Virus record (IMG/VR): IMGVR_UViG_3300029448_000103
Coordinates: 1-42,323 of that record
Source of the DNA: a virus
Length of the DNA: 42,323 bases
Direction: 5' to 3' (one strand)
The notes beneath the pieces were generated by a model that had not been told where the DNA came from, did not search any database, and saw only the letters and a list, made by a program, of their open reading frames with translations. The position numbers and the translations under genes were made by a program. Shown piece by piece: positions 4,374-36,448 of this stretch (position 1 is the first letter of the stretch; the number at the start of each line of letters is the position of its first letter).

Positions 4374-4402
4374 ATTATAAAGCCCATAAAAACGAATATA
4401 AA
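4374..4402 (-). promoter_or_regulatory. Phage promoter P4
   Basis: ACTGC followed by TTTATA (4397-4402), a 17-bp spacer and perfect TATAAT (4374-4379). The spacer shares TTTATGGG with P1. It is about 35 bases before the 62-residue gene. Confidence 0.78.
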
Positions 4403-4413
4403 GCAGTAAACTT

Positions 4414-4707
4414 TTAGTCTTCAAGCCCATAGAACTTGCGAGGACTATCGGGTAACTGCTCCCATTCTTTTTTAGAATACTTGCGACCTTCATAATAATA
4501 AATTTTTCGCCACGCTCCAGTAGAGACCACTTCATCAGTTGTTTTCTTAACCGTTTGGTCCGAGTCCAGGATCTCCTGCATAAACTCATGCACAATCGTT
4601 CTGAGTTCGTCTCGAGTGATCAGATGTTTATTCTGGGTGTCGTGATATTTTCTACCGAGATCGAGCCGTTCATCGTCGTCGATAATAATTTGTATATTGG
4701 TTTTCAT
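4414..4707 (-). CDS. Hypothetical protein, 97 residues
   Basis: Starts MKTNIQIIID at ATG 4707, four bases inside the end of the membrane protein gene (ATGA overlap), with no obvious site of its own, so it probably depends on coupled translation. The N-terminal half (IIIDDDERLDLGRK) is acidic and the C-terminal half basic and aromatic (RKIYYYEGRKYSKKEW). Function unknown. It ends just before P4. Confidence 0.68.
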   Translation of the reverse strand: MKTNIQIIIDDDERLDLGRKYHDTQNKHLITRDELRTIVHEFMQEILDSDQTVKKTTDEVVSTGAWRKIYYYEGRKYSKKEWEQLPDSPRKFYGLED

Positions 4708-4952
4708 CGTTGTCTAACCATGACACTGCCTGCATAACAGATCGCACAGCCCATCAGTATAAATATTGTGGACAGTATAGATTGAAAACTTGCTGTTCTG
4801 GGGTCTAGTGAAAACAACTGGTTGAAAAAACCCAGCACATCGAGTGCATAAAGGTCTTGTTTAAGGGGTAATGAGGCGAGATCTAAAAAGATCCAACCGC
4901 TCATAAACACAAACATCCCTGCTAGAAATGTTATTGCTCCTAATACTTTCAT
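4704..4952 (-). CDS. Small membrane protein with two transmembrane helices
   Basis: The 82-residue product has two clear membrane segments, residues 4-24 and 57-77, with a 30-residue polar loop between them and a short basic tail (VRQR). It starts at ATG 4952 with TTAGGAGACC upstream. The topology would fit a class II holin, but the gene sits among early accessory genes and not the virion block, and a more holin-like protein exists at 36624-37004. A role in superinfection exclusion or membrane-based takeover is equally possible. It directly follows the structured region 4953-5363, whose last hairpin (4974-4991) ends near its ribosome binding site. Confidence 0.72.
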   Translation of the reverse strand: MKVLGAITFLAGMFVFMSGWIFLDLASLPLKQDLYALDVLGFFNQLFSLDPRTASFQSILSTIFILMGCAICYAGSVMVRQR

Positions 4953-5363
4953 ATTGGTCTCCTAATTGAAGCTGAGGGGGTTATTCCCCTCAACCTACAT
5001 ATGAGCCATCCAACAACGCGCAAACATTTTTCTTCTTGGCTCATTATGTCTTTAAAGCTGAGGCGAGGGGATATTGTGCATTCAAGGCGCGACCTTGTTT
5101 GACTACATAATTACACACGCTAGTCAGTATTGTTTTGGTGCAACCCTCTATCTCAGCTGAGATTTAGTGGTAGCCAGTGGGCAGTTGGATTAACATTTAA
5201 GGATAGTTCATTAACTGCTAATTTCCCTATCAACCCTCGCACTGGCTACTGGTAGTTTTGATATAGCAGACTACCAACTGCTTCTTTGCTATTATATTTA
5301 TAGTCCAACTTAGCTTCTGGACTCGTAGGTCAGCAGTTTCCCACCCACCTACAGTGTGCAAAG
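4953..5363 (-). ncRNA. Candidate large structured RNA
   Basis: A 411-bp stretch without a plausible gene that contains a dense set of nested inverted repeats, all consistent with one minus-strand RNA. Domain I: stem 5358-5363/5284-5289 encloses hairpins 5347-5352/5325-5330 and 5318-5323/5302-5307. Then comes a hairpin 5270-5275/5251-5256. Domain II: perfect 10-bp stem 5240-5249/5170-5179 with inner stem 5213-5218/5181-5186. Domain III: two-part helix 5152-5157/5057-5062 and 5144-5148/5065-5069 enclosing hairpins 5121-5125/5101-5105 and 5093-5097/5083-5087. Then hairpins 5037-5042/5003-5008 and 4986-4991/4974-4979. A 7-base complementarity between the first hairpin loop (5332-5338) and 5276-5282 could form a pseudoknot. 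I cannot assign it to a known RNA class. Confidence 0.6.
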
Positions 5364-5756
5364 TTACACCTTTGTGAAGTAGCCTTCGGCAACAAGTCGC
5401 TTCGCATAGAATCTAAAGATTCTTAGCGGATCCTGACCTGTCGTCAAAGTACCGTTCTTCACGGCTAATGCCACTAGATCCTGTGCAGTGAAACTAGAGG
5501 AGTCAAGCTCCTTCTTTTTAGCTTCGGCTGCAGTTTGAATCAGCGCATACATCTGCGGTGTGAAACCTTTTTGCTCAGGGGTCTTGCCGTTGAACTTGTA
5601 TAAAGTTCTGGCGGCTCCTCGCCCTTTGCTCATAGGTTTTGGCACTGCAGTAACTTTTGCCTTGCTCAAAGGTTTCTTTGCTACTTTCTTAGTAGCTTTT
5701 TTAGTCACCTTTTGCACAGGTGCTCTTTTTACAGAGCCAACAGTTTGAGTTTGCAT
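5364..5756 (-). CDS. Histone H1-like basic DNA-binding protein
   Basis: A 130-residue protein with a Lys/Ala/Pro-rich tail (residues 9-48, with KKATKKVAKKP) like bacterial histone H1-type proteins. A compact C-terminal part (about 50-130) follows, with helices and the segment IFRFYAKRLVAEGYFTKV that resembles a winged-helix end. It probably binds DNA without much sequence preference. The start at ATG 5756 has AGAAAGGAGAAAG, and P5 lies upstream. It is followed directly by the structured RNA region, so both may share a transcript. The DNA-binding role is inferred from composition and not from a known family. Confidence 0.75.
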   Translation of the reverse strand: MQTQTVGSVKRAPVQKVTKKATKKVAKKPLSKAKVTAVPKPMSKGRGAARTLYKFNGKTPEQKGFTPQMYALIQTAAEAKKKELDSSSFTAQDLVALAVKNGTLTTGQDPLRIFRFYAKRLVAEGYFTKV

Positions 5757-5814
5757 AGCTTTCTCCTTTCTGTGTTGTTAATATTCCCGTTATTATTATA
5801 ACGAACCAGCCTTT

Positions 5815-5843
5815 ATTCTGCCTTAGACTATTACGAAAGTAAA
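5815..5843 (-). promoter_or_regulatory. Phage promoter P5
   Basis: TACTGCTTTACTTTCG with TTTACT at 5838-5843 matches the conserved upstream element exactly. At 17 bp the -10 box is a poor CAGAAT (5815-5820). A perfect TATAAT lies farther down at 5795-5800, out of normal spacing, so the exact start point is uncertain. Confidence 0.5.
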
Positions 5844-5867
5844 GCAGTAAAAGAATAAGGGAACACG

Positions 5868-6104
5868 TCAGTCTTGGTCAACGTAAGCACGAGTTGGACC
5901 CGCGATCAAGTTGTTGGCTTTATCTACCAGTTCGTATAGTTTCTCATCTAAAATATCTTCTTTCTCTATATAAGAAACCAACTCACCCAAGACTTTTGAA
6001 TGTTCCTCTAGCTCAGCAATATACCGATGTAGATCGTTTACCTGTTCTTCTTTTTCGGTAAACTTTTCGGCAATCCATGCAGCGATGTTTAATCCTTCCG
6101 CCAC
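5868..6104 (-). CDS. Small coiled-coil protein, 78 residues (GTG start)
   Basis: Starts with GTG at 6104 (MAEGLNIAAW) behind CAGGAG at good spacing and overlaps the upstream gene by 16 bases. Residues 14-65 form a charged coiled coil (EKFTEKEEQVNDLHRYIAEL). No family recognised. It is the last gene of its unit before P5. Confidence 0.68.
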   Translation of the reverse strand: MAEGLNIAAWIAEKFTEKEEQVNDLHRYIAELEEHSKVLGELVSYIEKEDILDEKLYELVDKANNLIAGPTRAYVDQD

Positions 6105-7690: not shown

Positions 7691-7719
7691 ATAGTAACCG
7701 CCAAAGCTACGAAAGTAAA
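7691..7719 (-). promoter_or_regulatory. Phage promoter P6
   Basis: TACTGCTTTACTTTCG with TTTACT at 7714-7719, a 17-bp spacer and TACTAT at 7691-7696. The -35 region lies inside the last codons of the nuclease gene, where the element itself encodes Ala-Leu-Leu-Ser. Confidence 0.68.
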
Positions 7720-8096
7720 GCAGTAGTTAGAGCTTCCCAGTCGTAGGGAATATTAAGAGTAAGCAGAGCATTAGACTTATATCCACCCTCTACCAACTGT
7801 TTTGCTCCTTCTAAACCGTCAACGTGAAACAACTTAATCTCGCCGTGTTTCCTTGCTAAAACAAATACTTGTCCGCCATGCATTGCTCGTTTAGCGATCC
7901 AGGAAACTTGCATTGGTCGTAGAGTAAGTTTGTTGCCTCCGTGGATCTCTTTTAGTTCTACCCAAAATTCTTTGCCTTTAGCACATCCGTTTACGTCAGG
8001 AACACCCGAACCCGTAAGTCCTGTCTCGATCCTTTGTAAATGTATATGAGGTAGGTTTTTCCTCATGAGTAGCCATAAGTTCTTTTCTTTAGCCAT
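7707..8096 (-). CDS. PD-(D/E)XK nuclease, VRR-NUC-like
   Basis: The 129-residue protein has the pattern ETG (24-26), SGVPDV (30-35), FWVELKE (44-50) and LRPMQ (59-63), the layout of small phage nucleases of the PD-(D/E)XK superfamily. Likely metal-binding residues are D34, E47 and K49, and Q63 is part of the family pattern. Relatives act on branched or structured DNA, such as Holliday junctions, in replication and packaging; the substrate here is unproven. The start (ATG 8096) overlaps the end of the preceding gene by 8 bases. Confidence 0.8.
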   Translation of the reverse strand: MAKEKNLWLLMRKNLPHIHLQRIETGLTGSGVPDVNGCAKGKEFWVELKEIHGGNKLTLRPMQVSWIAKRAMHGGQVFVLARKHGEIKLFHVDGLEGAKQLVEGGYKSNALLTLNIPYDWEALTTALLS

Positions 8097-8884: not shown

Positions 8885-8913
8885 ATACTATATACCAAAA
8901 ACGGCAAAGTAAA
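8885..8913 (-). promoter_or_regulatory. Phage promoter P7 (possible leaderless start)
   Basis: TACTGCTTTACTTTGCC with TTTACT at 8908-8913, a 17-bp spacer and TAGTAT at 8885-8890, then AAGGGT and the ATG at 8878. With the usual 6-7 bp from -10 box to start point, transcription would begin at or next to the first base of the coding sequence. Confidence 0.65.
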
Positions 8914-8924
8914 GCAGTATACGA

Positions 8925-11451: not shown

Positions 11452-11750
11452 GATTCTTCCTCATCTTTTAATTTAGTTAATATTTCTTGCTCGACTAAAA
11501 GCAAATACCTTCGCAAGTCGCGAATATCATCCAACAGACCATCTTCTCCCGAGTGTTCTATACCCGCTTTAAAGATGTCCCAGTTCTCGCCTCTGCTTTG
11601 GTTTTCGATCCTGTCGAACTTCCTAGCTAACATCATAAAGGCACCAACACCTCCACGACGTTTCCAAGAATCTCCATAAGACTCCTCTGCGATTTTAAGC
11701 GCTTGTAAATCGCTCTGAGCAATCTCTCTCATATCTTCCCACTTACTCAT
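11448..11750 (-). CDS. Possible nucleotide-modification-associated (DUF1599-like) protein
   Basis: Start at ATG 11750 (MSKWEDMREI) behind AAGGAGAACAAG, giving 100 residues. The core ESYGDSWKRRGGVG and ARKFDRIENQ, then WDIF and DDIRDLRRYLLLVE, match a phage protein type I recall with a YGxSW element, similar to DUF1599 / nucleotide modification associated domain 1. It is all-alpha with Asp/Glu-rich helices, like phage nucleotide-handling proteins. Position supports this: it overlaps the thymidylate synthase homologue by eight bases and is followed by PolA. The family assignment is tentative. Confidence 0.5.
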   Translation of the reverse strand: MSKWEDMREIAQSDLQALKIAEESYGDSWKRRGGVGAFMMLARKFDRIENQSRGENWDIFKAGIEHSGEDGLLDDIRDLRRYLLLVEQEILTKLKDEEES

Positions 11751-12771
11751 CTTGTTCTCCTTCGTATGTGTGGTCTCTTTTATTAACCCAACTGAAACAG
11801 GCTGTCTTCCAGTCGACGGGTTTAATATCTTGAATTGTTTTATAAACTGAATAATCTTTTTCTTTATGTTGTGCATAAGCTATTGCCATTGGTACAGCGA
11901 TATCTTTAAACGCGGGGTTTTCCCAACCATTCATGTCCATATCGCTAGGGTGAATACTAAAGAAACGGTCTAGTTCCCAGTGAAAGGAAGTCGTTTCGGT
12001 TATAAGTTTCGTAGGTTTGTAGTCGTCTGCGAACCCTTCATAAGGGTTTCTATAAGAGTGGTAGTTGTACGGATCGATTTTTAAATCTTTAACCCTCTGC
12101 CAAATATCTGTTTCTGTATAAACATGAAAACTATCACTAACTTGACGATAGGCTCCTATTTCGACTCCAATCATCGTTGCCATATATTCTTGTAAAATTG
12201 ACATATGAACTACGTTTGCTCCGTATGCTCCCCATAACATATCATTAGAACGGCAACACACCGTCATGTTTAGTTTGCCTTTCCTAACCTTAAAATAAAT
12301 ATTGGTATTGCACGGCACGTCTTTACCTTGTTTTGCAAGATCACCGATAGGATCCCACATCTGTAAAACAGCCCTGCGGTCATCTGGATTTTTCTTCAGT
12401 AAATCTATAACAACGGCTAATTGATCTTTATTAAAATATTTAGACCATCTCCAACCGTATGCTCCCCATAACGTTTCTCCATCGTCTGAAAAATCAGACA
12501 TAGATTTTACATAATACGTTAGTGGTTTAAGTTCATTACTTCCTGAAAGCATCCATAAACTTTCTATAAAATGAAAAAACGGATTAGCGTCTCGCTCCTC
12601 GATTAGACAAACACGTTCCCACGGACGAACATAAAAGGTTGTTACAGGTTCATTCGCCTCGTACGTTGTACCGTTACGGCTTTCTTGTACGTCATAATGT
12701 GACGTTTGATTAAATAAATCAATGCCGTGTAGTAACGCGTCGTTTACGTTTCTAGCCTGTATAACTTTCAT
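11743..12771 (-). CDS. Thymidylate synthase homologue (dUMP methylase or hydroxymethylase)
   Basis: The 342-residue protein has the fold markers of the ThyA superfamily: WDPIGDL before the catalytic Cys (DVPCNTNIYF, C154), RSNDMLWGAYGANVVH (174-189) with N186 at the position that reads the pyrimidine 4-position, and DSFHVYTE (213-220). Asn at the 186 site favours dUMP over dCMP. The enzyme therefore makes dTMP or 5-hydroxymethyl-dUMP; sequence alone does not settle which. The RSND-WGAYGAN form is typical of phage members. The start has GAGAGGAGCT, with an ATGA overlap upstream. dUTPase supplies its substrate. The DNA-modification-type gene at 13024-13929 favours the hydroxymethylase option. 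Confidence 0.88.
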   Translation of the reverse strand: MKVIQARNVNDALLHGIDLFNQTSHYDVQESRNGTTYEANEPVTTFYVRPWERVCLIEERDANPFFHFIESLWMLSGSNELKPLTYYVKSMSDFSDDGETLWGAYGWRWSKYFNKDQLAVVIDLLKKNPDDRRAVLQMWDPIGDLAKQGKDVPCNTNIYFKVRKGKLNMTVCCRSNDMLWGAYGANVVHMSILQEYMATMIGVEIGAYRQVSDSFHVYTETDIWQRVKDLKIDPYNYHSYRNPYEGFADDYKPTKLITETTSFHWELDRFFSIHPSDMDMNGWENPAFKDIAVPMAIAYAQHKEKDYSVYKTIQDIKPVDWKTACFSWVNKRDHTYEGEQDE

Positions 12772-13023: not shown

Positions 13024-13929
13024 TCATAAATCTTCTATTAGTGGAAGATCATTGTGTTTATAAACAGACCTTGTTCGCCCTTCTTTCTTAAATATCCTAG
13101 AATACTTATCGAACTCACAAAGTCCTCCCTCTATTTCTCTCATTTCATACTCATGTGGTCCTCTTATAGATGCCCTGCCATATTCAATCCTAGTTATAAC
13201 AGCTTCATATAGATCACACATTTCTTTATTCCAATCGTGGCTTCTTCTTGCGAAATCTAAATCTCTACCTGTTAAACGATTGAGTCCTCGCATCGCTCCT
13301 GGTCCAGCATTAGCCCACGACATAATATCCTTGGCTTTATCCAATAAACAAGTGTGTCTTAAATCTGTAACAACTTCGTAAGCCATAAACGGTCCCATAT
13401 AAGGATAGTCTCTTAACATATGCCAAGTTTTTTCTAGCGAGGCTTTTTCTTTCTCAACATCTTCTAATAAAACATCCATTAAATAATTTCGATCTTTCCA
13501 CATATGACTAACGCACTCTGCTACTCCTGTAACTTTGTCCATCCCGTTAGGAGTCTTTACGATGTAAGCCCCAGTAACCCACTTAGGCTGTTTAGTAATT
13601 TCTTCTATGGCTTTTTTCCTATCCCAGTTTAAAAGTAAATCGTGCTCTTTTAACGTTCTGCCCGTTTCTATTAGATTAAACCATCTAAAAATAACCGTAG
13701 CCATTAGAACTTTCGGATCATCGCTCAAAGGTTCTCTAATATGTGTAGCGAACCATCGTGTAGTGCGGTCATCCTCACGAAAGACTTGACAGAATTTAAA
13801 CTCTTGAAGAATAGGATCTTTCGTCCAAGGAGCAGGTATTTTTAGTTCCTCCTTCTTCCAACGAATAACCTCTCGCTCTGTCTGCCAGTAGCAATAGCGA
13901 TCTAATTCTTCTTTTATAAACTCGGTCAT
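13024..13929 (-). CDS. DNA base hypermodification-type protein (5-hmdU kinase helical domain / alpha-GPT pyrophosphorylase family)
   Basis: Start at ATG 13929 (MTEFIKEELD) behind AAGGAAAAA, in an ATGA overlap with the methyltransferase; 301 residues. The N-terminal block, with PAPWTKDPILQEF (33-45) and FREDDRTTRWF (50-60), matches the pattern I know from phage proteins called 5-hmdU DNA kinase helical domain or alpha-glutamyl/putrescinyl thymidine pyrophosphorylase. Later blocks GPFMAYEVVTDL (179-190) and ANAGPGAMRGLNR (206-218) fit the helix-hairpin-helix, glycosylase-like part of those proteins. No P-loop kinase is fused. In known phages such proteins activate or replace groups on 5-hydroxymethyluracil in DNA. 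Its neighbours are the thymidylate synthase homologue and a methyltransferase. Confidence 0.72.
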   Translation of the reverse strand: MTEFIKEELDRYCYWQTEREVIRWKKEELKIPAPWTKDPILQEFKFCQVFREDDRTTRWFATHIREPLSDDPKVLMATVIFRWFNLIETGRTLKEHDLLLNWDRKKAIEEITKQPKWVTGAYIVKTPNGMDKVTGVAECVSHMWKDRNYLMDVLLEDVEKEKASLEKTWHMLRDYPYMGPFMAYEVVTDLRHTCLLDKAKDIMSWANAGPGAMRGLNRLTGRDLDFARRSHDWNKEMCDLYEAVITRIEYGRASIRGPHEYEMREIEGGLCEFDKYSRIFKKEGRTRSVYKHNDLPLIEDL

Positions 13930-14765
13930 TTTTTCCTTAAAACCCAAGCACAATTATTAGCGACTTCTGGATAAAATACAGCAGAGGTCATTCTTAAAAA
14001 CTGTCTACCGTAACGTTGCTCCATCATCTTATACTGTTCAAAAGTCCATCCGTTAGGGTCCTCTCTAAGAGCCTTACGAAGTTTTGGTATTTGTATAAAC
14101 GTTCCAACTACCGATTCAATAACAAAATTTCTCTCTAGTTCTTCTTTTAACTCTTGAAAGCCCCACTCATATACATGATCTTCTGGCAACTTGTCATTAG
14201 ACCCGTCGTGGTTAGGTGTGGAAACATATCCTAGAGCACCCTTTCGCATAACTCTAGCGACATCATCTAACCACGCAGGCACAAACTCTCTACCCATATG
14301 TTCTATTACTTCTGTTGACCAGAAAAAATCTATGCTCTCATCGTCTAAGGCGAACACAGGGTTTACTGTAAGGTCTTGGATCCGTATTTCTCCGTTAAAG
14401 TTCTTAAACCATGTAGAATCCTTTAATAAACCGCCCGCATTAGACCAGAAAGGGTTTTCTAGTTCACACGCAGGGTCTATATCGTAGCCATAATAAGAAC
14501 GTATAACGTCGGATTTCTTTATTACATAGGCTTTATATAGATTACGAAGTGTCCAACACTCGCCGCAACCCACCTCAAAACTGTCGATTGGTCGATCTAA
14601 ATATTTCGCTTCTTCTATACAAAGAGTAGCTATCTTATCAAAACGGCTCATGTGAGCTAGTTCGTCAGGTCGCCAGTTGGCTAATACTCCAGCACTAGCA
14701 ATATTCATTCGTGTGTTTTTACTGTCGTTTTCGTTAACGGTTAATTTCTTTCTTATAGAGCTCAT
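13926..14765 (-). CDS. Class I SAM-dependent methyltransferase
   Basis: Start at ATG 14765 (MSSIRKKLTV) following GGGAGG, overlapping the upstream stop by four bases; 279 residues. The Rossmann motif I FEVGCGECW (63-71), the acidic end of strand 2 GYDID (93-97) and a STEVIEHM segment (150-157) show the SAM-binding fold. A VMRKGALGYVSTPNHDG segment follows. The VIEHM form is typical of small-molecule or peptide-like methyltransferases rather than DPPY-type DNA methylases, so the substrate is open. In this operon it may act on a modified nucleotide; this is inference. Confidence 0.82.
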   Translation of the reverse strand: MSSIRKKLTVNENDSKNTRMNIASAGVLANWRPDELAHMSRFDKIATLCIEEAKYLDRPIDSFEVGCGECWTLRNLYKAYVIKKSDVIRSYYGYDIDPACELENPFWSNAGGLLKDSTWFKNFNGEIRIQDLTVNPVFALDDESIDFFWSTEVIEHMGREFVPAWLDDVARVMRKGALGYVSTPNHDGSNDKLPEDHVYEWGFQELKEELERNFVIESVVGTFIQIPKLRKALREDPNGWTFEQYKMMEQRYGRQFLRMTSAVFYPEVANNCAWVLRKK

Positions 14766-16989: not shown

Positions 16990-17570
16990 AAGCCACTCCT
17001 AAACGTTAAACTGATTCTTTTTCTTGTCCCTTCTAGTGCTGGAATTGAATGAGTGCTTTTCATTTGTGAATGCCCGTCGAACAAATAAGCATCTCCATCT
17101 TCCAGTAAAATTCTTCGTGTTTCAGATTTTAAAAAATAGCCATCTAAATGAATTTTGCTAGTATTGGTTTTCTTCTTAATTAAATCACTATAGTTCGTCC
17201 ACTCTAATATTCTAGGCGCTCCAAAAGAGATTCCTAAAACATGATCTGTTAAATTAGGAACAGTGTCTGAATGATGAGGAATCGTATCTTCTCCTGTTTC
17301 GTATAGTCCACATAAACAAAAGGTAAATTTAATCTTGCGACCTATTATCTCTGACGACCATGCCTCAGCTTTTTCTTTAATGATTTGAATTTCTTCAGTC
17401 CAAGGTTCTGGTTTATATAGTTTTCCTGCATAATTAAACTCAGCTGTGCCATAGCCTTTTGTAGGTCGTCCCTCAACTATTTCTCCATTAAACTTTCTAA
17501 CATTTGGAACGTCCCAATTAGTTATCGTAGGAGCTTGTCCTTCGAAAACACCTTTAGCGTACATCATCAT
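16986..17570 (-). CDS. AlkB-like 2-oxoglutarate/Fe(II) dioxygenase
   Basis: The 194-residue protein has the AlkB signature: the GLYETGEDTIPHHSD segment (88-102) with the metal ligands H100 and D102, SFGAPRILEW (115-124), the distal ligand H174 in KSTHSIP, and R185/R191 of KRISLTFR, which bind 2-oxoglutarate. AlkB proteins remove alkyl groups from bases by oxidation; phage versions may repair damage or act on modified bases. Here it lies between primase and helicase genes with ATGA overlaps. No nucleotide target can be named from sequence alone. Confidence 0.88.
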   Translation of the reverse strand: MMMYAKGVFEGQAPTITNWDVPNVRKFNGEIVEGRPTKGYGTAEFNYAGKLYKPEPWTEEIQIIKEKAEAWSSEIIGRKIKFTFCLCGLYETGEDTIPHHSDTVPNLTDHVLGISFGAPRILEWTNYSDLIKKKTNTSKIHLDGYFLKSETRRILLEDGDAYLFDGHSQMKSTHSIPALEGTRKRISLTFRSGL

Positions 17571-19090
17571 AACAAATTATCCTTAAACTCAGGTAGATCG
17601 TGCGGTTCTTCTTGAATTTTAAATTCTTCAATAAACCAAACATTGACACCCTTACCTTTTATATTGAAAAAGTGTGGCTCTCCGTGTAGCTGTTTCAGCT
17701 TAGACGTTAATTTATTTCTTTGATACTCTTTAAAATTATGTCTGTGTAAATACTCCATCAAATCTGCAAGTCTAAAATAAGTCTTGCCGTTATCTGTCCA
17801 AGGTTTATGTAGCAATAACTCATCTCGTTCTCTAGCGGGTCTCTCTGTGCAGAAAGACTCTAACAGTTCCATAAAATGCCCCTCTGTAGAACTTTCTTTA
17901 GGTACTTCTACTATTGTAAGCGCATCGAGCAACTGTTGGATAATCTGTCGCCATACGTTTTCTTTAACCTTTTGTGGTATTTTGTTTAAAGCATCCATAC
18001 ACTTACGTTGAAACCTGTTTTGATTTAATAAGTCATCGGTCTCTAACTCTAGTCGACCACCTTCTACGTCTAAAAACCAAATCGGAGGGTCACTGTCCTG
18101 TTTAGTTAGATTACTAAACAGAGGTGTTCCACCGTTTGCTCCTATGCCAAACTTACGGGTCCGACATAAAGGACTGTTGCAATGACTAGCGATCGGTTGA
18201 TCATTACACTTATAGAAATAGTCTTTTCTCTGCACCTGTTTACCAACGGTTAGCACCTCTTGAGCACCTAAAGGCGGTTGCATGTATTTAATATTCATGT
18301 TCTCTAGCCTTTTTTCCCAATCATCTGGGAACTTTTTCCTGAGAAAAACACCTAGATTAAACAGCCCAGAGTTTCTAGTGCCTTCAGGAAAACCCTGCAC
18401 AACTAAATGCTGTAAACAAGGCGGCGATTGATCTAACCACTGCACAGATTCTGTTAAAGGACTAGCCTCTAAAGACTCTAATGCTTTAGGGTCTAGTGCA
18501 ATCGACTCACAATGGTCTAAAAAATCATCGGGTGTTAATGCCTTTCCATCGAGCCCGTAAGCGTATCGAGTAGAATTTTCTCCACCAAAATAAGGCATGT
18601 TTAACGTGCTGCCTCGGTCTCCTCGTTCTAATAACAACTGAGTTTGTTTAGGAAATATCTCAGCCTGTCCATAACCGATTGCTGCTGCCAGTTGTCTTAA
18701 CTTTCGTTGTAACATCGACGCTGCAACAGGTTCTTTTAAAAATATATAAATATGAGCTCCTCCGCTTTTGCTCCTACAAATAACAAGAGGAAGTTTTTGT
18801 TTAGCGATCTTTATCGCTAAATCTTTTAAATCTAAGTGATACTCGTCTACGTCTATCGCGCCCCAGACACACTTGTTGTTTTCATCTATCGCAACAATCC
18901 CTACACTCTGACGACCAGACAAGTGGTTCTCCCATAATTTCAAAAGATCTTTATCAGAAAGCTCTTTCGATATGGTAATGTTTTTACCACTTGCCTTGCC
19001 ATCTTCTCTAGTTTCATTGTTAGCTGTAAATGTCCCGTATGCTTTTCGTAGTCCAGCATATCGCTTAGAAAATTTCTCCGCTAACGACAT
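17567..19090 (-). CDS. AEP-type DNA primase (TOTE/Prim-Pol-like)
   Basis: 507 residues. The N-terminal primase-polymerase domain has the acidic catalytic GAIDVDEY (78-84) and SKSGGAHIYIFL (107-118), the DxD and SxH pair of archaeo-eukaryotic primases. The layout resembles the AEP domain seen in TOTE conflict systems and in phage and plasmid primases. A Cys/His cluster (CNDQPIASHCNSPLC) in the middle looks like a zinc-binding primase C-terminal element. The rest (about 330-507) is helical. It should lay down primers for PolA. The start is ATG 19090, four bases after the upstream stop, with a weak ribosome binding site. Confidence 0.88.
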   Translation of the reverse strand: MSLAEKFSKRYAGLRKAYGTFTANNETREDGKASGKNITISKELSDKDLLKLWENHLSGRQSVGIVAIDENNKCVWGAIDVDEYHLDLKDLAIKIAKQKLPLVICRSKSGGAHIYIFLKEPVAASMLQRKLRQLAAAIGYGQAEIFPKQTQLLLERGDRGSTLNMPYFGGENSTRYAYGLDGKALTPDDFLDHCESIALDPKALESLEASPLTESVQWLDQSPPCLQHLVVQGFPEGTRNSGLFNLGVFLRKKFPDDWEKRLENMNIKYMQPPLGAQEVLTVGKQVQRKDYFYKCNDQPIASHCNSPLCRTRKFGIGANGGTPLFSNLTKQDSDPPIWFLDVEGGRLELETDDLLNQNRFQRKCMDALNKIPQKVKENVWRQIIQQLLDALTIVEVPKESSTEGHFMELLESFCTERPARERDELLLHKPWTDNGKTYFRLADLMEYLHRHNFKEYQRNKLTSKLKQLHGEPHFFNIKGKGVNVWFIEEFKIQEEPHDLPEFKDNLL

Positions 19091-32904: not shown

Positions 32905-35280
32905 CTATAAGTTAGGTTGCATGTTCATTATATCATTCATCCCAGTTAAACTTTCACCGTATAGTCCCCGAAAGGCTGAGTTATTATCTGGAATATTAAC
33001 ATTAGTATATATTAACTCAGGCTCATACCAAACACTAGGCTGTGGCACCTCTACTTGACTATACGCACTAAACCCAGGAACAAAACCCATATAAGCGATC
33101 AGTTGTGCTTCATCACCATACTCGCCTGTTTCTTGTTGCTGTTGTTCTAGTTCTTCTTGTTGGTTTTCTATGTTTTGAGCAACGATTTGATCGGCAATTA
33201 AATCAGCTTCTGAAGCAGGCATTTCAGACATCGCCGTATCAATCTCTAACTCCATTGAACCAACTGCGGTATTTTGAGAACCACTAGTGTTTGAGTCGTT
33301 TTGACCAACTGCTACGTTTTGTGAACCAGTAGTATTGCCTGAAGCCCCTGTATTTGTTGAGGTGTTAGAAGCAACACTCGTTGAACTGCCAACTGCGGTA
33401 TTATTGTTACCCATAGTATTTGAATCGTTTTGACCAACTGCGGTATTATTGTTGCCTATAGCAGTATTATTAACACTCATTGATAAAACTTGTTGTGTTT
33501 GTATTGCGGAACTTGCAACTTGAGCAGAGATACTGGGGGAGTTACTGATGCTAACCGTTCCTCCAGACACAGAAGAAGTCACTGCATTTGCTTGCGAAGA
33601 CGTTGTTGTAGAAAAAGAACCGCCTGAAGATGCAGACATTCCTGTTGCTTGTGACGAAGTTCCTGCAGTTGTTCCGCTTACACTATTACTTGCTGCACGA
33701 ATAGAATTAGCCACAACATTTAGCTGTTCTGCTCTTTTGTTGTCTTTTTTCTCTTTATTCTCCGCGACAACAAGGTCGATATTTTCTTCTCGGTCTTGTA
33801 TTTCTTCTTCAACTGTCTCCGAATTCTCCAAGTCTCCATCTTCATCATCAGATAAAACAGCAAGTTCCTCAAGTATTTCTTCCGTTTCCTCTTGTTCAAT
33901 CCACTCCTCCAGTTCTTCTATTGTTTCAAATTCTAAAAATTCTACAGGTTCTTCTTCAAAAGTTTCTTCAATAAATTCTTCATGTTCAAAATGATCTAAT
34001 AAAATATCTTCCAATACTGGAAGATCGTAGTCTGTTTGATAAAAATCTTCCACCAATAATATTTCTTCATATATCTGTTCTATATAAGGCTCTTCTTCGA
34101 TATAACTTAAAGGAATAAAGATTTCTTCGGGCAATGCATCAAATTCTTCTACAAAAGGTTCAAGGTATTCTTCTTCAAAATACAGTGTTTCTTCGTAATA
34201 CAATTCTTCTTCGTAATACAGTTCTTCAAAATAAAGATCTTCTTGGTAATGTTCTATCCCTTGTAGCTCAGTAGTGTATAAAGGTTCTTCTTCAAAGAAA
34301 TAATCGTCTTCGTAATACGGGTCAGTATATCCATACTGATCTTCTTCATAGTCATCATAACCATACATATCGTTTTGATAATAACTATCTTCGACAAAAG
34401 TTTCGACCATATATCCAGCACACGCAGGAGAATATTGCGAATCCAAAGCACATTCATAATCAAATAAATCGTCCCAATAGTTAGGACACTGAGTAGAATA
34501 CAATCCATCTAAGTCACATTGTTGGTTTAAAAACGCTGCTTGATAGCCAGTACATGCGGTATTGTTTAATGGATTGCTACAATCCAGTCCATTCCCAGCA
34601 CCTACACCGTATAGACTCCCACCATTTTCCAATAAAGTATTAAAAGAAGTGTCGTTCCAATTAGTGTTGACACAAGTGCCTGCAACATTAGTCGAGCCTG
34701 TACTGCATTCATCGTGGTACAAATAAGTATAAGATTCACTTGAACTGCCTTGTTCGCCAATTAATACATCGTGATTAATAATATTCAGCCCACCGTATCG
34801 AAACTCAAAGCTATCATCGGACTTCCAAAGTATTACTTCAAAACTATTGTCAGAACCACTGCGGTTGTATTCTCGTAGGTTGTACCACCCAAAAACAGCT
34901 TTATCTGTAAAGTTCCTAGCTAATACGCTAGAACCATTGTCTCTTATTAAGTCAGTCCAAAAAGGATATAAAGTGTATGTATGTTGCCCTACTAAGGGAT
35001 CTGGTGTGTAATCATTACAATAAGAACCGCTTGTTTTAAAATGTAAACAACCGTTTGTTGCCATTCGAGCAGATGTAAAATCTTCTCCATAAAAAGTAAA
35101 AGTAAAATCTAAGTTAAAAGCACTTGAAACCCGATCATCTCCAACACCTAGATTGTGGGAAGTAGCTATATAGTTTGTTTTTAAATCAATAAGAGATTGA
35201 TTTGCTTCATAAATATATCCTGCATTTAATGTAGGTATAAATAAAACAAAAACTAAACTAACTGCCCTTATCAAACTCAC
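32905..35280 (-). CDS. Secreted or envelope protein with acidic repeats and TAVG repeats
   Basis: 791 residues with a signal-peptide-like start (MSLIRAVSLVFVLFIPTLNAG), then a beta-rich domain (about 25-190: FTFYGEDFTSARMATNGC, PFWTDL). A Cys-rich part follows with two copies of a CxLDxxYSxxCxxY pattern, then a very acidic Tyr/Glu region (about 300-500) and a Ser/Thr/Asn region with NNTAVGQNDSN-type repeats (33250-33480). The GTG start (35280) lies inside the end of the upstream gene. I do not know the family; secretion through the membrane or virion surface are both possible. Confidence 0.62.
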   Translation of the reverse strand: MSLIRAVSLVFVLFIPTLNAGYIYEANQSLIDLKTNYIATSHNLGVGDDRVSSAFNLDFTFTFYGEDFTSARMATNGCLHFKTSGSYCNDYTPDPLVGQHTYTLYPFWTDLIRDNGSSVLARNFTDKAVFGWYNLREYNRSGSDNSFEVILWKSDDSFEFRYGGLNIINHDVLIGEQGSSSESYTYLYHDECSTGSTNVAGTCVNTNWNDTSFNTLLENGGSLYGVGAGNGLDCSNPLNNTACTGYQAAFLNQQCDLDGLYSTQCPNYWDDLFDYECALDSQYSPACAGYMVETFVEDSYYQNDMYGYDDYEEDQYGYTDPYYEDDYFFEEEPLYTTELQGIEHYQEDLYFEELYYEEELYYEETLYFEEEYLEPFVEEFDALPEEIFIPLSYIEEEPYIEQIYEEILLVEDFYQTDYDLPVLEDILLDHFEHEEFIEETFEEEPVEFLEFETIEELEEWIEQEETEEILEELAVLSDDEDGDLENSETVEEEIQDREENIDLVVAENKEKKDNKRAEQLNVVANSIRAASNSVSGTTAGTSSQATGMSASSGGSFSTTTSSQANAVTSSVSGGTVSISNSPSISAQVASSAIQTQQVLSMSVNNTAIGNNNTAVGQNDSNTMGNNNTAVGSSTSVASNTSTNTGASGNTTGSQNVAVGQNDSNTSGSQNTAVGSMELEIDTAMSEMPASEADLIADQIVAQNIENQQEELEQQQQETGEYGDEAQLIAYMGFVPGFSAYSQVEVPQPSVWYEPELIYTNVNIPDNNSAFRGLYGESLTGMNDIMNMQPNL
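33250..33480 (-). repeat. NTAVG repeats like those of the tail fibre
   Basis: Repeats of the type NNTAVGQNDSN, GNTTGSQNVAVGQN and SQNTAVGS are in the C-terminal part of the 791-residue protein. The fibre at 41382-42323 has NTTGTQNVAVG, so the two proteins share this unit. The pattern is close to the beta-roll repeats of YadA-type heads. Confidence 0.7.
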
Positions 35281-36448
35281 GTTTACAAGTTAACCTTGAC
35301 TTATTTTGACCAGCAGAGTTTTCGGTTCTAGCACATTTAGCAACATAACTGGCTTTTGCTTCTTTATAGTCGGGTCGGTCTTTAGGGTTGGCAGCCCATG
35401 CTGCTCTAGCTTCTTCCCCTATCTTCCCTTCATACGGACAAGGGGTGCCTGCCATGTACATAGCACTAAATACTCTTACATCCTGGCACATAATAGCAAC
35501 TGCTGCCACTTTCATTCCCATATCGTATAAATACTTTCCTAATTTTAATCGTTCACAGTTTGTATCTCTAACGGTTCTGCCCGCAGATAAACCAAATACT
35601 TGCCCCTGGAACGCACCCGACCGACCTACAGTACAAAGATCTTGGCTATAGCTCATTATTGACGGAGCAATCGCAGAAGCAGGCGGTGCTTTAGTCGTGA
35701 TGTTTTGATTAATCGTTTGTTCAGATTTTGACTCATTAATGTTTCGATTGGTATTATCAGAAGTGCTTGTGTTTTCGTTTACGTTTTTATTGTCTGTTTT
35801 TACGTTTGAGTTTGAGTTCGACTCGTTTTTATTTACGTTCGTATTATTAGAAGTCGAAGTGTTGTTATTGTTGTTTGTATTGGTATTGGTGTTCGTGCTT
35901 GTCGACGTGTTGTTATTGTTGTTTGTGTTGGTAGATGTGCTGGTATTGTTGTTGTTGTTTGTATTGGTATTGGTCGACGTACTGGTATTGTTGTTGTTAT
36001 TGTTGTTTGTATTAGTGCTTGTTGAAGTGTTGTTGTTTGTGTTCGTTGCTGTTGATGTCGAAGTATTGTTGTTTGTATTGGTATTTGTTCCAGTTGATGT
36101 CGAAGTGTTGGTGTTTGTGTTGGTGTTTGTGTTGGTATTTGTTCCAGTTGATGTCGAAGTGTTGGTGTTCGTGTTATTGTTTGTGTTTGTGTTGGTATTG
36201 GTGTTCGTGTTTGTTGCAGTAGTTGTGTTGGTGTTATTATTTGTATTGGTATTGGTATTGGTGTTCGTGTTCGTGTTGGTGTTTGTGTTTGTATTCGTGT
36301 TTGTTGTAGTTGTAGCCGATGTCGTAGTCATCGAATTTTGTTCACAATACTGAGAACCCGCTGTGCAATCGCCAGTTTGATCTGCGTAAGACGGTTGCGT
36401 CAAACTTACTAGAAATAAAAAAGGAATGTATTTAATATAGTTAATCAA
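35258..36448 (-). CDS. Secreted Asn/Thr-repeat protein
   Basis: 396 residues beginning with a signal peptide (MINYIKYIPFLFLVSLTQPSYA), so secreted or periplasmic. Residues about 40-215 are Asn-Thr-Ser repeats of a TNTN type with no order, and a C-terminal part (about 250-396) has spaced Cys and an ordered look (VGRSGAFQGQVFGLSAGRTV, KVAAVAIMCQDVRVF). The start is probably a TTG at 36448 in a TTGA overlap with the previous stop; no ATG gives a signal peptide. The low-complexity part has microsatellite-like DNA and is likely to vary in length between strains. Confidence 0.6.
   Translation of the reverse strand: MINYIKYIPFLFLVSLTQPSYADQTGDCTAGSQYCEQNSMTTTSATTTTNTNTNTNTNTNTNTNTNTNTNNNTNTTTATNTNTNTNTNTNNNTNTNTSTSTGTNTNTNTNTNTNTSTSTGTNTNTNNNTSTSTATNTNNNTSTSTNTNNNNNNNTSTSTNTNTNNNNNTSTSTNTNNNNNTSTSTNTNTNTNNNNNTSTSNNTNVNKNESNSNSNVKTDNKNVNENTSTSDNTNRNINESKSEQTINQNITTKAPPASAIAPSIMSYSQDLCTVGRSGAFQGQVFGLSAGRTVRDTNCERLKLGKYLYDMGMKVAAVAIMCQDVRVFSAMYMAGTPCPYEGKIGEEARAAWAANPKDRPDYKEAKASYVAKCARTENSAGQNKSRLTCKREFDKGS
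35840..36310 (-). repeat. Asn/Thr-coding microsatellite-like region
   Basis: A run of about 470 bp of GTGTTG, GTATTG and TTTGTG-type units encoding Asn and Thr (and some Ser) in the secreted protein. Copies differ by single bases. On the plus strand the same DNA gives a long false frame rich in Val, Leu and Phe. Confidence 0.82.

Follow-up and report, generated by a model that had tools for sequence, protein, structure and literature searches.

Phages of the T4 type carry mobile regulatory cassettes known as PeSLs, small promoter-bearing stem-loops that are shuffled between intergenic sites. Searches of the open-access literature for stem-loop cassettes returned just papers citing these T4-type cassettes, and no description of phage structured RNA of the kind reported below was found there. 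Larger structures are represented by the ornate large RNAs GOLLD, ROOL, and OLE, some of which occur in phages or metagenomes (PMC2864571, PMC12286853). At the other end of the size range, small self-cleaving ribozymes of the hammerhead type combine a conserved core with variable stems and are found circularly permuted in nature (PMC3088659). For the marine habitat, candidate structured RNAs are reported to have been obtained by comparative discovery in 'Candidatus Pelagibacter ubique' and marine metagenomes (PMC2704228).

Here, we analyzed a 411-nt intergenic gap (4953-5363) in a 42,323-nt stretch of viral DNA, hereafter the window. The gap is a row of separate folded modules that are exchanged as units, an account of its anatomy and exchange in which we have high confidence. 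In behavior, the T4-type mobile cassettes are the nearest described system, since the stem-loop modules of the window are likewise exchanged between intergenic sites. Unlike PeSLs, the modules comprise many families of pseudoknotted RNA, and a consensus scan of the array strand (minus strand, 4953-5363; sigma-70 only and thus weak evidence) gave no sigma-70-like promoter match. The gap resembles GOLLD, ROOL, and OLE in being a large structured noncoding region, but it has no Rfam match and consists of separable modules, not of one RNA conserved as a unit. The resemblance to self-cleaving ribozymes lies in the conserved core, the variable stems, and the apparent circular permutation, but the modules match no known class. 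The habitat is that of the Pelagibacter candidates; our modules, however, are carried by phages and match no Rfam family.

An earlier note had read the gap as possibly one structured minus-strand RNA of about 400 nt, free of reading frames and similar in size and complexity to GOLLD or ROOL. Much of its description was borne out. No ORF of at least 50 amino acids lies inside 4953-5363 on either strand, and the stems it singled out are all present in the window, namely the helix that we now call P1 of module C (10/10 pairs), the two helix parts P0 and P1 of module D (6/6 and 5/5 pairs), and a closing stem at 5358-5363/5284-5289 (6/6 pairs). The minus-strand fold has an energy of -136.7 kcal/mol, whereas dinucleotide shuffles average -105.2 ± 5.9 (z = -5.36, or 5.4 SD better; 0/100 as good), whereas the plus-strand fold is weaker (z = -2.48). 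Single hairpins and modules of the gap also beat their shuffles, with z from -1.7 (module B) to -6.7. This folding energy, together with the compensatory changes in the module families described below, upholds the view of a structured minus-strand RNA region. The structure is also more than a terminator, as the note had argued; no intrinsic terminator (a G+C-rich hairpin followed by a T run) was matched on the minus strand within 4600-6000. The parts of the array are listed in Table 1.

Table 1. Parts of the module array and flanking genes in the window
Feature	Position	Strand	Evidence or remark
Upstream gene, basic 130-aa protein	5364..5756	-	stop codon abuts array
Empty "socket" stem GTAGGT.../...ACCTAC	5325..5352	-	alignment of four contigs; hairpin z = -6.7
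Small hairpin AGTCC/GGACT, loop AGAAGCTAAGTT	5302..5324	-	kept in all four close relatives; z = -2.9
Module B, hairpin GTTGGTAG...AAAACTACC	5250..5282	-	weak on energy alone, z = -1.7
Module C	5170..5249	-	covariance model E = 3.9e-21; covariation in all four helices; z = -3.7
Module C helices	P1 5240-5249/5170-5179; P2 5232-5236/5187-5191; P3 5227-5231/5202-5206; pseudoknot 5213-5218/5181-5186	-	
Module D	5057..5157	-	covariance model E = 2.6e-23; covariation in P1 and P3; z = -3.5
Module D helices	P0 5152-5157/5057-5062; P1 5144-5148/5065-5069; P2 5121-5125/5101-5105; P3 5093-5097/5083-5087	-	
Module D, possible pseudoknot	5138-5143/5111-5116	-	no both-sided changes
Hairpin module GAGCC...GGCTC	4996..5049	-	in L001, not L002/L054; z = -3.1
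G+C-rich hairpin GGTTGAGGGG/CCCCCTCAGC, no T run	4970..4995	-	in L001, not L002/L054; z = -4.6
Downstream gene, 82-aa hydrophobic protein	4704..4952	-	just two relatives found

Relatives of the upstream protein were found at 73 loci, and the protein has no Pfam or PHROG match; the downstream product is probably a membrane protein. The loop AGAAGCTAAGTT of the small hairpin recurs in module I (L008, 4035-4088), and the hairpin is a possible remnant of that module, judging by this common loop. Module B occurs in L001, L002, L054, L077, L092, L093, L114, and L184, and its stem reads TAG/CTA or CAG/CTG among unrelated contigs.

The exchange is best seen when the window is compared with L001, L002, and L054, three contigs in which the gap lies between the same pair of genes. 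The four gaps measure 411, 307, 297, and 339 nt, respectively, and the alignment shows whole blocks present or absent, with no gradual divergence. In the interval from CTTTGCACA to CGAGTCC, the stem GTAGGT/ACCTAC of the window is bare; L002 has module E at this site, L054 has module F, and L001 has the same stem around a larger core, which is module G. Module C is found in the window and L002 and is absent from L001 and L054, module D is found in the window and L054 and is absent from L001 and L002, and the two 3' hairpins (4970-5049) are restricted to the window and L001 among the four. Relatives also have a second such site, where flanks and a closing stem GTGGY...RCCAC are constant around a core of the G, I, or F type, which suggests that cores are swapped within a constant closing stem.

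Empty and filled sites could be compared precisely for C, D, F, H, J, and K. Some junctions carry direct repeats of 5-10 bp, such as GAACATG around J (L095), CTCAGCT around a D-containing block in the window, and CTACCA flanking module C in the window. These repeats vary in length, and some comparisons of empty and filled sites show none; insertion, exchange through microhomology, or deletion by slippage could each have produced them.

Compensatory changes were found in three families, C, D, and H. For module C, 96.2% of cells were paired across 13 sequences, compared with 25-43% when slid; 12 pairs had changed on both sides, and none of 500 shuffles reached the covariation score. P1 accounted for both-sided changes in 9 of its 10 pairs in this set. 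When 15 sequences were considered, P2, P3, and the pseudoknot each had at least one compensated pair, with a total of 4 versus 0.5 in shuffles. Examples are the change of P3 from GATAG/CTATC to GGTAG/CTACC in L213 and that of the pseudoknot from GCAGTT/AACTGC to ACAATT/AATTGT in L170. One further copy (L182, 620-745) has the order TTTAGTAG...TATCCAACTGT, L hairpin, GAGGGTAGCGAG...ACAGTT...CTTGC...CTACTAAA, in which the L hairpin sits in place of P1 and all three core helices are compensated. The C covariance model matches part of this copy independently (E = 0.0055; covariance-model E-values here and in Table 1 are rough), and from its order of elements, it is apparently a circularly permuted C.

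Module D paired in 99.2% of cells over 17 sequences, with compensated pairs in P1 and P3. Its suspected pseudoknot showed one-sided changes only in these 17 sequences; an alternative, GTGTGT/ATGCAC, was dropped, being broken in L114. The loop-to-tail pseudoknot of module H had three compensated pairs and none unpaired among 13 sequences, and the closing stems of J, F, and K appear by eye to vary in step. Sense-strand G-U pairs occur in C P2 and in the D pseudoknot. Of the stems listed in the earlier note, only those inside modules C and D are conserved, whereas the helices and pseudoknot that would tie the region together are not. The 7-base loop complementarity taken for a pseudoknot (5332-5338/5276-5282) exists in full (7/7), but its 5' arm is absent as such from L001, L002, and L054, other modules standing in its place in the latter two, and L001 is without the 3' arm (5284-5289) of the closing stem.

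Families were delineated by grouping short matches between loci with non-matching flanks, which gave about ten: B, C, D, E/F, G/G2, H, I, J, K, and a short core, L. This number is approximate, as E and F have their 3' part in common and G2 appears to be a relative of G. Across the collected loci, profile searches yielded 96 distinct copies in intergenic gaps, frequently in tandem sets (K-H-D, H-G2-D, B-C, and F-B-D) and sometimes one within another, with K in the P4 arm of C (L079), J within F (L102), and L within C or G. The copies fall into 15 flank clusters without DNA similarity, with C in 8 and D in 7, although two of these clusters supply 65 of the 96, so that related phages account for most copies. 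Exact-core scans of the whole database retrieved viral stretches for C (16), D (23), H (23), and L (22). Because C and D were collected by exact core patterns, the near-identity of their cores is partly a selection effect; nevertheless, a relaxed C pattern with nine free positions brought just two more contigs, L213 and L214, and the C core does seem conserved given these few additions.

Some contigs that bear C or D show no resemblance to the window at the protein level over the stretch compared. The DNA polymerase of the window shares 54.5% identity with the enzyme of phage 023Pt_psg01 and 48.7% with that of Pelagibacter phage HTVC023P. The portal protein of L090 is 60.8% identical to that of HTVC115P, the L080 portal is near those of HTVC027P and HTVC023P, and the nearest relative of the L113 DNA polymerase is in Pseudomonas phage KPP25 (34.9%). 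Contig stretches with C, D, or L have G+C contents of 30 to 42%. Other genes of the window include one for a protein with the helical domain of 5-hmdU DNA kinase (13024-13953; PF18723) and one whose product reads like a thymidylate synthase family member (11743-12771); from these two predicted proteins, the phage may carry a hypermodified thymine. A further protein (17567-19090) has the archaeo-eukaryotic primase domain of TOTE conflict systems (PF22548), and a predicted 396-aa protein (35258-36448) contains a long Asn-Thr repeat tract and matches phrog_20531, whose function is unassigned.

The orientation of the modules was compared with that of neighboring ORFs of at least 75 amino acids. 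Among the 96 copies, 88 had co-directional neighbors only, 7 had one of two co-directional, and 1 had opposite neighbors only; the neighbor in this last case is a 79-aa ORF that may be spurious. In L080, modules lie on both strands, each following its own neighboring gene. As the 15 flank clusters have no DNA similarity, the strand bias is not one inherited event, and the fact that the strand follows local transcription argues that the modules act as RNA. With no promoter or terminator match on its strand, the array is probably co-transcribed with the upstream phage gene. Elsewhere on the minus strand of the window, TACTGCTTTA occurs exactly five times (596-605, 4399-4408, 5840-5849, 7716-7725, and 8910-8919) and 13 times with at most one mismatch, compared with 4.6 expected; it sits ahead of genes within a longer repeated upstream element and is perhaps a phage promoter.

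Copy number was assessed by searching 46 whole virus records with covariance models, which found D in 12 and C in 11, with one match each; the other families were seen once per locus. A transposon would usually be present several times, whereas a cargo gene would occur once, as C and D do. Likewise, MITEs and insertion sequences differ from C and D in occurring in several copies per genome. As to a constant target-site duplication, the direct repeats described here vary in length and lie at some junctions only.

The Rfam covariance-model scan of the window was empty at gathering score. A lax search of 4600-5900 revealed no GOLLD or ROOL, and the lax matches TUSC7, Y_RNA, SNORD75, and Vax2os1_2 were rejected as below their gathering scores. 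Rfam gave no known ribozyme match for the modules, and ARAGORN found no tRNA or tmRNA. Distant blastn of the whole region and of ten modules joined against 50,697 named phage genomes gave no real match, model C found nothing credible in the cultured pelagiphages HTVC023P and HTVC115P or in phage 023Pt_psg01, and the exact D and L core patterns were absent from 84,980 prokaryote genomes. The individual modules are new structured RNA families.

Several other explanations have to be weighed against these data. A single large ornate RNA, as the earlier note proposed, agrees with the whole-region fold energy, but modules of about 30-130 nt come and go singly, stand alone in unrelated phages, and differ block by block among contigs with the same flanking genes, so that the 400-nt RNA is not the conserved unit; with its tying stems and pseudoknot not conserved either, we give this proposal next to no credence. 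Scarcely more credible is the view that the modules are DNA hairpins serving as recombination or replication sites. Their palindromic ends and their gain and loss at short repeats would suit it, whereas the strand tracks local transcription and the sense-strand G-U pairs suit RNA. Selfish mobile cassettes, hairpins that propagate to their own advantage and persist because their folding in intergenic RNA does no harm, would account for the presence/absence pattern, the nesting, and the direct repeats at some junctions. We consider them unlikely, given the one copy per record, a strand fixed relative to transcription, compensatory changes that preserve the RNA fold, and no identified mobility protein; moreover, repeats of varying length could equally arise by slippage deletion.

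Two further possibilities retain a function in RNA. Cis-acting elements that shield polycistronic phage mRNA, direct its processing, or divide it into parts, such as pseudoknots that block exonucleases or sites of the RNase III type, would be expected between cistrons on the sense strand, with no promoter or terminator match of their own, and the loop-to-tail pseudoknots of C and H would be at home among them. Such elements should be reused in several operons per genome, yet C and D occur once per record, and many families are in use rather than one, making this option unlikely. New classes of self-cleaving ribozymes that cut the transcript would explain the conserved core with variable peripheral stems, the pseudoknot, and the apparent circular permutation of C, all of which are common features in small ribozymes; nonetheless, none matches an Rfam ribozyme, the co-occurrence of about ten unrelated classes would lack precedent, and we judge this improbable. 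Jointly, cis-acting elements and ribozymes make up a minority possibility.

We favor the reading that the gap holds an array of horizontally exchanged accessory RNA cassettes with a trans-acting cargo role, and we assign to this reading as a whole a probability of roughly 55%. Each main cassette is an RNA of 60-130 nt with a conserved core, pseudoknotted where this is well testable (C and H), and a closing stem free to vary in sequence. The array would be transcribed within the mRNA of a phage gene, and its cassettes would fold independently of one another. Whole cassettes are acquired, lost, and traded between phages, probably by recombination via shared closing stems and short direct repeats. 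The cargo RNA would then act in trans, binding or decoying a host, defense, or rival-phage factor. One family copy per genome, mixed sets, unrelated phages, no constant neighbor gene, and placement on the transcribed strand all point to cargo; the trans-acting role itself, by analogy with exchangeable counter-defense protein genes, is put forward tentatively, at somewhat less than even odds. With more reserve still, we propose that marine phages may draw on a common pool of small pseudoknotted RNA genes with interchangeable cores in constant closing stems, which would be the RNA counterpart of exchangeable counter-defense gene islands. To our knowledge, the open-access literature describes no system in which an array of exchangeable, nestable, and partly permutable RNA cores is set in constant stems.

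If this reading is true, about ten families without an Rfam relative would introduce exchangeable RNA cargo as a class into phage biology, in which accessory function has so far been sought almost only in proteins. That compact phage genomes keep several hundred nucleotides of folded RNA hints at some benefit. Given their small size, the families can be synthesized and probed directly, and RNA-based host takeover or counter-defense in marine phages would thereby become testable.
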